Source: an uncultured Poribacteria bacterium
GTDB lineage: Bacteria; Poribacteria; WGA-4E; PCPOR2b
Assembly: GCA_958296125.1 (NCBI GenBank)
Contig: OY282444.1
Span: 1,477,176-1,541,175, forward strand
Direction of reading: 5' to 3'
Length of the DNA: 64,000 nucleotides
A program made the position numbers and the translations under genes. The first letter of the stretch is position 1. Each line of letters opens with the position of its first letter. A model generated the notes under the pieces. That model was not told the DNA's origin. It saw only the letters and a program-made list of their open reading frames with translations, and ran no database searches. Positions 13,418 through 17,846 of the stretch are shown here, piece by piece.

Positions 13418-14626
13418 ATGCTTATACTCTGTGCCAACGTTGGCAGCACTTCATTCAAATACCAAATTATTGATGTCCAAACATCAGCGTCGCTGGTCAA
13501 AGGGGGAGTCGAGCGGGTCGGCAATTCGCCATCACCGTTCACACATGCCATCCCTAACAAACCGATTGTGAGCGGCGAAATTAACGCACCAAACCATAAT
13601 GCTGCGATTGTGCACGCGATAGATCTGATCACGTCCCCCGAAACAGGAGTAATGGCGAATCTCAGTGATCTCGTGGGGATAGGCTTTAAGACCATTCTCG
13701 CCAGAGGGATTTGGCGTTCCGCGTTGATAACAGCGGAGGTGGTCAACACCCTCGAAGCCGATATTCCATTCGCACCCACCCACAATCCCGCTTATATCGC
13801 CTCGATCCGCGCCTTTCAAGATCGACTCCCGGACACACCATTAGTCGCCGTTTTTGAGACATGGTTCCACCAAACGATGCCGGACTACGCCTCCGAATTT
13901 GGTGTTCCGCGAGCGTGGGTTGAGAAACACCATATCCGTCGCTACGGCTTCCACGGTGCCTCACATCGCTACATCTCAGAGCGCACGCCCCAACTGCTCG
14001 GTGCTTCATCGGCGAATCTGCGGATCATCTCCTGCCATCTCGGTGGGAGCTCATCGCTGTGCGCTATCCGCGACGGTCAGTCAATTGACACGACGATGGG
14101 GGTCTCGCCGCAATATGGGCCCATCCAGTCGTCTCGGAGCGGTGATCTGGATCCGTTTGCAGTGCTTTACCTGATGGATGCAGAAGGGTGGGGCACAGAC
14201 GAAATTCGCCGTCAACTGATCGAGGAATCGGGGCTGCGAGGAATTTCAGGTGTCAGCGGCGATTTGCGCGATGTCGAAGAGGCAGCAATGGGAGGAAATG
14301 ATAACGCGCGACTGGCAATGGACACCTTCTTCTATCAAGTCAAGAAGCACATCGGTGCCTACATCGCTGGGCTCGGCGGGGTAGACGTAATTGCGTTCAC
14401 CGGCGGGATCGGCGAAAAGAGCCCGACCGCGCGTGCGGCAATCTGCGCTGGCTTGGAATGGCAGGGCATCCTGTTAGACCCACAGAAGAATGAAAGTCAG
14501 ACCGGCGAAGGCGAAATTTCCGCCGCGGATAGCCGATCGAAGCTCCTTGTCATACCAGCAAATGAGGAAATTATCGTCGCGCGGGAAACGGCAAACGTCA
14601 TCACACAGCAATGTGCTTCCAAATGA
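13418..14626 (+). CDS. acetate/propionate kinase family protein, divergent active site
   Basis: This 402-residue ASKHA-fold kinase of the acetate kinase family keeps N7, S10, S12 and K14 in NVGSTSFKYQ, the RRYGFHGASHRY block (H179), the RSGDLDP block (R240) and FTGGIGE near the C-terminus. Departures from well-studied AckA are the usual catalytic Asp of VFDTxFHQTMP replaced by Glu (VFETWFHQTMP), the LGNG loop reading LGGS, and the HRVVHGG segment with its substrate Arg missing (IGFKTILARG). Ribosome site GAGGAAC precedes the ATG. No phosphotransacetylase is adjacent. It may phosphorylate another carboxylate. Confidence 0.82.
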   Translation: MLILCANVGSTSFKYQIIDVQTSASLVKGGVERVGNSPSPFTHAIPNKPIVSGEINAPNHNAAIVHAIDLITSPETGVMANLSDLVGIGFKTILARGIWRSALITAEVVNTLEADIPFAPTHNPAYIASIRAFQDRLPDTPLVAVFETWFHQTMPDYASEFGVPRAWVEKHHIRRYGFHGASHRYISERTPQLLGASSANLRIISCHLGGSSSLCAIRDGQSIDTTMGVSPQYGPIQSSRSGDLDPFAVLYLMDAEGWGTDEIRRQLIEESGLRGISGVSGDLRDVEEAAMGGNDNARLAMDTFFYQVKKHIGAYIAGLGGVDVIAFTGGIGEKSPTARAAICAGLEWQGILLDPQKNESQTGEGEISAADSRSKLLVIPANEEIIVARETANVITQQCASK

Positions 14627-14652: not shown

Positions 14653-15513
14653 CTACTGTCCACGGTCAAAAAGATAGGTCAGTAGTCGAGCCCCATCCCG
14701 AAAATCGGGAATCAGAATGTCCGCACCGGCGCGAAGCAGCCGGCCCCGTTTGTCCGCGTTCATCTGGTAGCGGTTGTTCTCCACGGATGTCACGCCCACA
14801 GCGATCGCACCGACAGCCTTCGCATTTTCGATTTCCACCGAACCGTCCCCGACGACCAAAAGCTCGCCCCCGGTCAGGTTAAAATCATCAAGAATCTGCT
14901 GAATCACCATCGCCTTTGAGAAGTTCTGGTACTCCCGCAATGCCCCGAAGATACCCCCGTCAAAGTAGGATGCAACCCCTAGCAACCCTGCTTCGTGCCG
15001 AACAAATTCAACATCGGTTCCACTGGCGAGGGAGCGTTTGATGCTGCGTTTTTGCAAACACTGTAGGAACTCAAGCGACATCGGCACACGCAAATCTGGA
15101 GCTTCAATCTCTCCCCTTTCCAGCTTGGCGATGCGTTTATCCACGGTTGGCAAGAGCAGGTTGTTATACAAATCTTTGTATTCCAGTGGTGGCTTCGGGA
15201 CCCCGCCCCGCTTCTCGATCTCCTCACACAGTTGGATCATTTGATAAATGGTTTGCTTGCCGGTCAACCGATCCACAAATTCAACAACAATCCGCTCTAA
15301 CTCCTCCGGTGTTTCATCGGTCTGTGTCTCCTCAAGCAGGATATCAACCATCATGGGCACCATGACGCTCTGCCACCCGTCACGAATCAGCGAAATCGTT
15401 CCGTCGAAATCAAATAGAGCGTGCTGAACCTTGGCCCGTTCGGTTTCGTGGATAATCTCAATTGATGTGTTCTCTAAGGTCTGTGGTCTTGCCACGGTTT
15501 GGAAATCCCCCAT
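14653..15513 (-). CDS. HAD superfamily hydrolase
   Basis: A 286-residue haloacid-dehalogenase-type phosphatase: motif I DFDGT (near residue 36), motif II Ser/Thr in LASGTD, motif III Lys in FSKAMVI, motif IV VGDGSVEIENAK. A helical cap of about 100 residues follows motif I, so it is of the C1-cap, phosphoglycolate-phosphatase-like form. It begins 22 bases after the sulfatase-fold gene ends and lies on the same strand, so they are probably co-transcribed. No clear ribosome site is visible at 15513, consistent with coupled translation. Substrate unknown. Confidence 0.83.
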   Translation of the reverse strand: MGDFQTVARPQTLENTSIEIIHETERAKVQHALFDFDGTISLIRDGWQSVMVPMMVDILLEETQTDETPEELERIVVEFVDRLTGKQTIYQMIQLCEEIEKRGGVPKPPLEYKDLYNNLLLPTVDKRIAKLERGEIEAPDLRVPMSLEFLQCLQKRSIKRSLASGTDVEFVRHEAGLLGVASYFDGGIFGALREYQNFSKAMVIQQILDDFNLTGGELLVVGDGSVEIENAKAVGAIAVGVTSVENNRYQMNADKRGRLLRAGADILIPDFRDGARLLTYLFDRGQ

Positions 15514-15535: not shown

Positions 15536-17167
15536 TTAAGCTAAGTCTTGCCCCCAATAATACTGCCCATACAGGTGAATCAGGTTTTTCGGATTGTCGG
15601 CTAGCAGGTCGCCAAAGGTTATCTTTTGAATTTCCCGCTTCGGGCCCGGAGTATCCTCTCGATACGCGGAACGTCGCGCCTGACCCTCAGCGGGGAAAGC
15701 AACCCATTGACCCTGATCATCTCGGAAGGCGTATATTGTGCCGCTCATCGGTGTGTGAACTTCGACGTTCGCATCTTGGAAGGGACGAATGCGCGTTTCA
15801 AGGGCCCCGTGATCCGCCAGAAACTCAATCCAAACACGGCGCATCCGTTCAGCTATATCGGGATGGGCATCAACGATGTTATGTTTCTGGTCGGGGTCAG
15901 TTTTCAGGTTATACAGTTCGGAAGGTATCCCCTCCGGTGCACACAAGTAAGCCCACTCATCGTCGGTGATGGTGCTGGGCTCAACGTTTCGGTCGGAGCC
16001 CACCCACCCGTCGAAAGTGGCACCCTCCACCGGTGTATAGCCGGTAGTCCCCGCGCTGGGCGGGAATCGACTTGAGAAAGCATAATCGTGTATCCTTTCC
16101 TCGCCCCCCGTCATCAGGGGCAGGAAGGAGGTCCCTTGGATGTGGGATGGTGTTGATATTCCAAGAAAATCCAAGATTGAAGGTAAGATGTCAGGGGGTT
16201 GGACAATCCCCTGAACCCGCTCGCCTGCCCCCAATCCTTCGGGGTGATGAATCAAGAGGGGAATGCGGATGGTGACTTCGTAGAGCTTGCCGAGCTCCGC
16301 CCCTGGTTTACCTTGCAGGTCGTGGTCTCCGAACAGATGCCCGTGGTCGGAAGCCCAGATGATGAGCGTATTTTTGAAGAGTCCCAACCGTTCTGCCAAA
16401 TCCAAAAAGGCACCCACCCACCGATCCGTCAGGGTAACGTTGCCGGCATAGAGTGAGCGAAGATGCGCCGCCTCCGCTTCAGTCATATATGTTGGGCGAC
16501 CGTATTCCGGGTACAACATCTGATCGCCATCGTAATTGGGATCGGCGTACAGCGCGTAGTCGTACCAAGGGCAATCGAAAGGCTCATGGGGGTCCCACAT
16601 ATCAATATAGAGGAAAAACGACTCATGGTTGTAGTTGGTCTCCAGCCAATCCATCGCAGCCGACATCCCCCGTCCAACGCAGAATTCGCGATCAAACTGG
16701 CGGGCGGCGTGGTTGCGGAGGTAGCCCTGTAGGCCGGGGATGTTGCGGATTTTATGCGGTTGAGCGAACAACTGAATGTCGAGAGCGGGGTCAGTTATCC
16801 ACGGATCGCCTTTCTGGCTATGCACAAATTCGAGTCCCCCAAAACCGCGCGTGTAGTTATAATCGTGCATCGCAAGCATTGGAGTATCCCAGATCATTTG
16901 AGTATGCACACCGTTCGCAGACAGGATTTGTCCCCAAGTCACATCTTCAGGGCTCAGGGGCTGCCACCCCCGAAAAGGGAAACCGAAACGTCCGGTCGCC
17001 AAGTCCCACCGATTGGGCACCGTCGGATAGGAGGCCGCATAAAACTGATCAAATATAGCTGCGCGTTGAGCGAACCCATCCAGATTGGGTGTCTGAATCC
17101 AAGAGTTGCCGTAGCACCCCAAGTGGTCCCTGCGAAAGGTATCGTTCATGATAAAGATGACGTTCAT
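15536..17167 (-). CDS. sulfatase-family (alkaline phosphatase fold) hydrolase with Thr at the formylglycine position
   Basis: A 543-residue protein with the overall plan of a type I sulfatase. The N-terminal metal Asp is D9 (IMNDTFRRDHLGCYG), H194 lies in WDPHEPFD, the distal metal pair in SDHG is D274-H275, and K287 is in GKPG. The nucleophile motif (C/S)xPxR reads TVPNR (49-53), so the residue normally converted to formylglycine is Thr. That makes classical sulfatase chemistry doubtful; a phosphodiesterase-like reaction or a separate non-FGly subfamily is possible. No signal peptide is present, so it is probably cytoplasmic. AGGAGC lies before ATG 17167. It is followed by the HAD gene and preceded by the selenoprotein gene on the same strand. 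Confidence 0.85.
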   Translation of the reverse strand: MNVIFIMNDTFRRDHLGCYGNSWIQTPNLDGFAQRAAIFDQFYAASYPTVPNRWDLATGRFGFPFRGWQPLSPEDVTWGQILSANGVHTQMIWDTPMLAMHDYNYTRGFGGLEFVHSQKGDPWITDPALDIQLFAQPHKIRNIPGLQGYLRNHAARQFDREFCVGRGMSAAMDWLETNYNHESFFLYIDMWDPHEPFDCPWYDYALYADPNYDGDQMLYPEYGRPTYMTEAEAAHLRSLYAGNVTLTDRWVGAFLDLAERLGLFKNTLIIWASDHGHLFGDHDLQGKPGAELGKLYEVTIRIPLLIHHPEGLGAGERVQGIVQPPDILPSILDFLGISTPSHIQGTSFLPLMTGGEERIHDYAFSSRFPPSAGTTGYTPVEGATFDGWVGSDRNVEPSTITDDEWAYLCAPEGIPSELYNLKTDPDQKHNIVDAHPDIAERMRRVWIEFLADHGALETRIRPFQDANVEVHTPMSGTIYAFRDDQGQWVAFPAEGQARRSAYREDTPGPKREIQKITFGDLLADNPKNLIHLYGQYYWGQDLA

Positions 17168-17234: not shown

Positions 17235-17768
17235 TTATGAAGATTTCGCCAACACGGCAGCAATCTTTTCAACGATACCATCTGCACGACCGCGAATTTG
17301 ATCGGGCGTGAGGCTCTGGATTGGGTGTTCAACGGTAGTCGGATGGAAATCACGGTAGCCGAGCGATTTTGCTTGAACTTCCCCGGCAGCGAAAAACACA
17401 TCCGAGCAGATCGACACGCTGGGGATGCCACGTTCTTCTAAAGCGGTTCCGTCGTGCACACTGCACGATATACAGGAACCTCAGTCCGCCAGTCCTTCAA
17501 CTACGAAATCGCACCGATCGGCGAGCTCCGTGATGAGTTCTTGCGGCGCGGGCCGCGCAAAGGTTGGTTTTGTGACACGAACGACATCTACAAGGTCAAA
17601 ATGCTCACGCATGAGCTCTTCGACACGGTCGAGGAAGATGTCGCTGCCGTTTTTGCTGATGTCCAGCAAGCCCATCACCTTGCCGTTGAGGTCGTCAAGG
17701 CGTGGCGCGAGAAATTTGTCGGATGCGTTGCTCGGAGCGATTGGATCGAGTAAAATTGTGTTTGCCAT
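17235..17768 (-). CDS. UGSC family selenoprotein (in-frame UGA at codon 96)
   Basis: Translation from ATG 17768 (AGGAGG site immediately upstream) runs 95 residues to a TGA at plus positions 17481-17483, and the same frame continues for 81 residues to a stop at 17235. Reading the TGA as selenocysteine gives LADUGSCISC, the UGSC motif that names a known family of (seleno)proteins, with U96, C99 and C102. The continuation (HDGTALEERGIPS, FHPTTVEHP) reads as a conserved protein, not random sequence. A hairpin directly after the UGA supports recoding. The protein is cytoplasmic and about 177 residues; its reaction is unknown, probably redox. The upstream sulfatase-fold and HAD genes are on the same strand downstream. 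A standard gene finder would split it into two pieces. Confidence 0.88.
17445..17480 (-). promoter_or_regulatory. bacterial SECIS-like hairpin
   Basis: Reading the minus strand immediately after the UGA, GGTTCC pairs with GGAACC (outer 6-bp stem) and TCGTGCA with TGCACGA (upper 7-bp stem), separated by a six-base bulge on one side and one base on the other. Letting the top A-T pair open gives an apical loop AGTGT starting 18 bases after the UGA, with a G at its second position. Both agree with known bacterial SECIS rules (loop 16-37 bases after UGA, G in the first two loop positions). Confidence 0.75.
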
Positions 17769-17846
17769 TGTAAACCTCCTGTGGATTCAAAAAATCGACT
17801 TAGATAGCATAGCATTGCCGGTGACTTCTGTCAACACCTATTTCCG

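Follow-up and report, generated by a model that had tools for sequence, protein, structure and literature searches.

The UGSC gene and its in-frame TGA

In the genome of an uncultured Poribacteria bacterium, a sponge symbiont (5.16 Mb, 98.9% completeness, one contig), one reading frame is interrupted by a single TGA codon, which raises the question of whether this codon ends the protein or encodes selenocysteine (Sec), and what the resulting protein might do. The frame occupies positions 17235-17768 on the minus strand of the stretch of DNA analyzed here (64,000 nucleotides of contig OY282444.1, positions 1,477,176 to 1,541,175; hereafter the window). It runs from an ATG at 17768 to a stop codon at 17237-17235, and its sole internal stop is the TGA at 17483-17481; when this TGA is read as U, the frame stays open for 177 residues, with Sec at residue 96 in the center of the protein (GLAD-UGSC-ISCSVHDG). 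The initial annotation, which had described a frame split by one TGA at the U of a UGSC motif, gave both the coordinates and the residue count correctly. A ribosome-binding site, GGAGG, can be read from the sequence at 17775-17779, 6 nt before the ATG, and a promoter-like TTGACA-17-TATGCT is found further upstream at 17806-17834 as a consensus match only, both on the minus strand. The read-through protein scores 160.9 bits against NF041046 (cut-off 125) and 170.4 bits against PF24696 (cut-off 25), the latter covering residues 6-174 of 177. It thus exceeds the curated cut-offs of the full models and carries the U/C-G-S-C motif. The UGSC family is already known as a major family of the GOS selenoproteome (PMC2398784), with Sec, a bacterial SECIS and Cys homologs, all of which are shared by the window gene along with the full-length match and the motif; no difference was seen in the gene itself, and the locus adds an ordinary member to an established family.

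It is evident that coding constraint persists beyond the TGA. Mean identity between the window protein and 58 relatives is 70% before the TGA and 71% after it. Third codon positions are the most divergent on both sides, at 0.55 versus 0.16-0.20 upstream and 0.58 versus 0.14-0.24 downstream, in agreement with the earlier remark that the downstream half looks conserved. The UGSC gene is present in 63 of the 85 genomes of the Poribacteria phylum, and all full-length copies contain exactly one internal TGA. In the Poribacteria copies that were read, this TGA is the U of UGSC, with one fused copy having USTC, and the named relatives of 67-94% identity are all Candidatus Poribacteria. More distant homologs in haloarchaea, Arthrobacter, Roseovarius, Embleya and others have Cys at the Sec column, and TGA is found there again in Acidovorax sp. 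T1 and Paracoccus ferrooxidans, the latter with selB nearby. The in-frame TGA is therefore either kept or swapped for Cys. In 29 aligned homologs, other than two fusions from Sporomusa and Vibrio described below, U/C96 and C99 are invariant. In Acidovorax sp. T1 (L088:6001-6291) and P. ferrooxidans (L094:5977-6546), annotation has taken the TGA for a stop and shows the UGSC gene as truncated or as two genes; in P. ferrooxidans, selB lies ~4.5 kb downstream of the UGSC gene.

The genome encodes the Sec machinery. A tRNA-Sec gene (selC) was found by both Rfam and ARAGORN (76.6 bits), selB (370 bits) and selA (601 bits) lie in a single cluster at C1:47917-51463, and selD (370 bits) is located at C1:1302552-1303472 (L025). 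The selD gene has an in-frame TGA of its own, so that selenophosphate synthetase is probably itself a selenoprotein here too. The presence of selA, selB, selC and selD together matches a test that the initial annotation had proposed, as do the family-model search and the comparison of residues at the Sec column; its statement that the motif is known from selenoproteins and Cys homologs is likewise borne out, and neither of the outcomes that it regarded as fatal (no Sec machinery, or relatives with an unrelated residue or a true stop) was encountered.

A conserved SECIS hairpin

Two nested inverted repeats had been reported directly after the TGA. Both exist, and the apical loop lies 18 bases away as reported, but only the inner one is conserved. 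The inner stem-loop, UCGUGC-AGUGU-GCACGA (17452-17468, minus strand), has a 6-bp stem and a 5-nt loop with G at loop position 2, and its loop begins 18 nt past the UGA. Published bacterial SECIS rules specify a loop of 3-9 nt, a stem of 4-16 bp, a G in the first two loop positions, a distance of 16-37 nt from the UGA and a minimum free energy of ≤ -7.5 kcal/mol (PMC13188914), and the window hairpin conforms to all of them (5 nt, 6 bp, AGUGU, 18 nt, -15.5 kcal/mol). The 39-nt fold has a z score of -3.0, and none of 200 shuffled sequences is equally stable; a longer stretch of 61 nt reaches a z score of only -1.2. Among 28 distinct relatives, the inner stem is paired in 167 of 168 cells (99.4%). 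The outer stem GGUUCC/GGAACC (17445-17480, minus strand; 17480-17475 with 17450-17445) is complete in close relatives only and paired in 64% of cells, and the outer repeat was therefore ruled out as a part of the SECIS. An Rfam search of the window gave no match.

The pairing is preserved where the sequence changes. At the pair that closes the loop, one Poribacterium has U-A for C-G (TGC...GTG to TGT...GTA), and Acidovorax and Paracoccus have G-C (TGG...GTC), in these two despite a Cys to Trp substitution. Among 81 conserved degenerate codons compared in 59 relatives, the hairpin codons S101 TCG, S103 AGT and H105 CAC are invariant, and C102 TGC has one exception, which is compensated; the only other invariant codons are D95 and the TGA itself. 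The conservation of the hairpin is well beyond chance. These comparisons argue that the SECIS is maintained by selection in Poribacteria, and they offer a clean case of RNA-level selection within a coding sequence.

Standard gene callers would close the gene at 17481, and one might regard the locus as a pseudogene or split gene in which translation really ends at the TGA, giving a product of only 95 residues. This is highly improbable, since the TGA, the protein sequence past it and the hairpin are all conserved and the Sec machinery is present. The TGA at U96 is almost certainly decoded as selenocysteine: the SelA/SelB/SelC/SelD system would read it, with the hairpin after the TGA as a guide.

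Relationship to PrdB and GrdB

UGSC proteins have been treated as thioredoxin-like in the literature (PMC2398784, PMC13188914). Profile comparison points elsewhere. When compared by hhalign with a diverse PrdB-like alignment, the UGSC family aligns Sec on Sec with a probability of 93% and a pairwise E value of 3.4e-7, and the score (52.1) is well above the top one of 200 decoys (24.4). The match is weak when the PrdB profile is built from Poribacteria only (P = 0.012; 1 of 150 decoys scored higher). In searches against 18,950 models, GrdB (TIGR01917) is a weak match for 20 of 29 UGSC proteins (best E 0.0034) and PrdB for 4 of 29 (best E 0.0081), and the Sec region of the window protein falls within its GrdB alignment. 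Like PrdB (TIGR04483) and GrdB (TIGR01917, PF07355), UGSC has a UxxC between a strand and a helix, with Sec on Sec, and an equal spacing of 18 residues to the next strand motif (GIPSV / GIPTI). Unlike GrdB, it lacks the GrdB N-terminal region, and its sequence is far below the cut-offs: the window protein scores 13.8 of 602 bits against TIGR01917, and PF07355 gives no match to it. UGSC was thus rejected as a PrdB or GrdB proper. The profile homology supports a distant kinship between UGSC, a stand-alone, single-domain protein, and the Sec domain of PrdB/GrdB (selenoprotein B).

The AlphaFold2 model of UGSC (pLDDT 71.5, pTM 0.73) alternates alpha and beta elements in the order b-a-b-a-b-UGSC-a-b-a, the motif following the third strand, with residues 97-101 below 50. 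Flavodoxin-like proteins are among its best PDB structure matches, and TM-scores are mostly 0.3-0.5; no thioredoxin appears among the top 50 matches of this model, whose confidence is moderate and whose UGSC loop is poor. Searches of PDB sequences with either UGSC or the partner protein described below returned chance matches only. The UxxC motif and the listing of UGSC proteins among Trx-like-fold proteins (PMC13188914) would favor the thiol-disulfide oxidoreductase of thioredoxin fold that is assumed in the selenoproteome papers. We consider this assumption improbable: the strand order of the model and the place of UGSC in it disagree with thioredoxin, which is also missing from the best 50 structure matches, profile homology leads to PrdB/GrdB, and in two lineages a separate thioredoxin is supplied by a fusion or an adjoining gene.

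The genome encodes a further selenoprotein (C1:1378184 region, L125, minus strand), which is PrdB-like and has the motif FLTPV-U-PLC-NQSVG; TGA is at U in 30 of 30 Poribacteria copies read. It is, like UGSC, a relative of PrdB/GrdB with a TGA-encoded Sec, but it is far closer to PrdB (155 bits) and has a different pattern of occurrence.

A partner protein

On plasmids, UGSC is found beside a family of ~320 residues (330-370 residues in the plasmid homologs) annotated as 'hypothetical protein', for which neither a Pfam or NCBIfam name nor a solved relative was found. All 18 plasmid records with UGSC also carry this partner, nearby or fused. Partner-UGSC fusions are present in Variovorax boronicumulans, Neorhizobium and one Poribacteria-class genome, and have the same architecture as a UGSC/Unknown_1 fusion reported previously (Figure S1 of PMC2398784); matched by architecture and not by sequence, the Unknown_1 domain is probably the partner family. 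Whereas that report concerns a fusion, most Poribacteria have two separate, distant genes that co-occur. In the window's genome the partner gene lies at C1:2095282-2096088, unlinked to UGSC and ~0.6 Mb from it.

Like UGSC, the partner family is present in 63 of the 85 genomes of the phylum. Both genes are found in 61 genomes, neither in 20, and the remaining genomes are mismatched, two in each direction (P = 3.6e-15, Fisher's exact test, which ignores shared ancestry). Inside one genus the four-way count is 11/1/0/6; the PrdB-like gene, used as a control, shows no association with UGSC within that genus and was dropped as a candidate co-occurring partner. UGSC and the partner are jointly absent in separate groups (G016, G019, G024 and six members of genus g10), and shared ancestry alone is therefore an unlikely cause of the co-occurrence. 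Fusion, adjacency and co-occurrence together support the existence of a dedicated partner for UGSC.

The partner has no similarity to PrdA, in which it differs from D-proline reductase, and was set aside as a candidate PrdA/GrdE on that ground; a PF09338 search of the genome returned nothing, and the control of that search also gave no signal. A common fold for UGSC and the partner was discarded, as the two show no profile similarity. None of the viral contigs searched encodes the partner. In three haloarchaea (L090, L091 and L185), two paralogous partner genes flank UGSC, and these paralogs may form a partner heterodimer.

Thioredoxin links and a proposed function

A TrxB-like gene is found within flanks of about 5-8 kb at 8 of the 18 plasmid UGSC loci, three of them above the TrxB equivalog cut-off, and in Arthrobacter the genes trxB, trxA, partner and UGSC stand in a row. 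In one Poribacterium (G023), the partner is extended at its N terminus by a segment with CPTC and TVPT, and UGSC is the next gene directly downstream. PDB matches of this extension are nearly all thioredoxins (best E 0.0026), at a level below the Pfam reporting limit. With the exception of the G023 fusion, no TrxB/Trx gene lies close to either UGSC or its partner at the Poribacteria loci examined. A single clear TrxB is encoded in the window's genome.

Taken as a whole, these observations are probably best explained by a thioredoxin-fed two-component (seleno)reductase. UGSC and the partner would act as one enzyme in which the partner helps to bind a small substrate, and the selenolate would attack this substrate or be oxidized by it. 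A selenenylsulfide would then form between Sec and C99 of the UxxC, to be reset by thioredoxin and thioredoxin reductase. The profile comparison supports placing the Sec of UGSC where the catalytic Sec of proline/glycine reductase lies. The model for these enzymes is that the Sec subunit attacks a substrate held through a carbonyl group (PMC10298544), and relatives of GrdB have been proposed to defluorinate fluoroacetate (PMC10838667). The analogy to proline reductase is incomplete, the partner being unlike PrdA and without a solved relative or a named family. Plasmid UGSC loci include genes for transporter substrate-binding proteins, CoA transferases, CoA lyases and PEP-mutase-like enzymes, and such contexts in other organisms hint weakly at carboxylic-acid or CoA-linked catabolism.

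Some fusions depart from this chemistry. In Sporomusa termitida (L182:7317-9041) and Vibrio europaeus (L183:5323-7008), UGSC-partner fusions have DMGTS for the UGSC-type motif, so that Met and Ser replace both redox residues, and they are encoded next to aconitase X and DUF126. Both match UGSC weakly (28.3 and 24.9 bits, cut-off 25). These apparently redox-dead versions suggest that redox chemistry is dispensable to the architecture, which would have another role there. One could extend this to the whole family and regard UGSC as a domain of the partner enzyme that acts as a scaffold or binds substrate without redox chemistry, where Sec or Cys tunes the protein and is not its catalytic center. 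The two fusions and their link to aconitase X and DUF126 fit such a scaffold, but we think it improbable for the family given the invariance of U/C96 and C99 in the 29 other homologs and the selection that keeps the SECIS in Poribacteria. It is somewhat less improbable, though still unlikely, that UGSC is a detoxifying selenoperoxidase or repair protein, with the partner serving it as a subunit for docking or regulation, and not a catabolic reductase. UxxC chemistry and a supply of thioredoxin would also suit the reduction of peroxides or sulfenates, and an AhpC/TSA gene adjoins the partner gene in the window's genome. AhpC/TSA does not recur as a common neighbor of the partner, however; the plasmid loci have transporters, CoA transferases and lyases instead, and the homologous Sec domains of PrdB/GrdB reduce small molecules, not peroxides (PMC10298544).

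Returning to the two-component reductase, we tentatively propose, at somewhat less than even odds, that UGSC and its partner constitute an unrecognized class of thioredoxin-coupled (seleno)reductases, tied to proline/glycine reductase by the Sec domain only and distributed across Poribacteria, haloarchaea, actinobacteria and proteobacteria in Sec, Cys and apparently redox-dead versions. If so, selenolate-based reductive cleavage chemistry would enter lineages not known for such chemistry. Since 2008, UGSC proteins have ranked with the most common selenoproteins of aquatic environments, with no function assigned to them (PMC2398784), and the literature searched contains no description of the unlinked partner, the PrdB/GrdB kinship or the thioredoxin links. 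Naming a partner, a likely electron donor and a homologous enzyme family could turn a 'hypothetical' protein into a testable two-protein system, and Cys or Sec forms have cultivated hosts in Natrinema, Arthrobacter, Roseovarius, Variovorax and Paracoccus.

Genomic neighbors of UGSC

The initial annotation had placed UGSC upstream of a sulfatase-fold gene and a HAD gene on the same strand. The strand and order are as described, with a sulfatase-superfamily gene at 15536-17167 (PF00884, 111.7 bits) and a HAD-family hydrolase gene at 14653-15513 (PF00702, 39.5 bits), both on the minus strand downstream of UGSC; as pointers to function they did not hold up. Only within the genus of the window does the sulfatase gene adjoin UGSC; the HAD gene is loosely syntenic and variable in position. 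An operon with these genes was accordingly rejected as a functional clue, and both were judged to lie outside the system, as local synteny only. An acetate-kinase family gene lies beside the HAD gene on the plus strand (13418-14626; PF00871, 360 bits), and its proximity to UGSC is conserved only within the genus; acetyl phosphate is a product of glycine reductase.

Other neighbors vary among Poribacteria. M81/MlrC-type genes (L162:6709-8187; also L037, L112, L113 and L116) are found near UGSC in some genomes and beside the partner in others, the two loci being unlinked. Outside the window's genus, a TPR protein of ~110 residues is encoded just upstream of UGSC on the same strand at 22 Poribacteria loci (e.g., L034:5643-5975).
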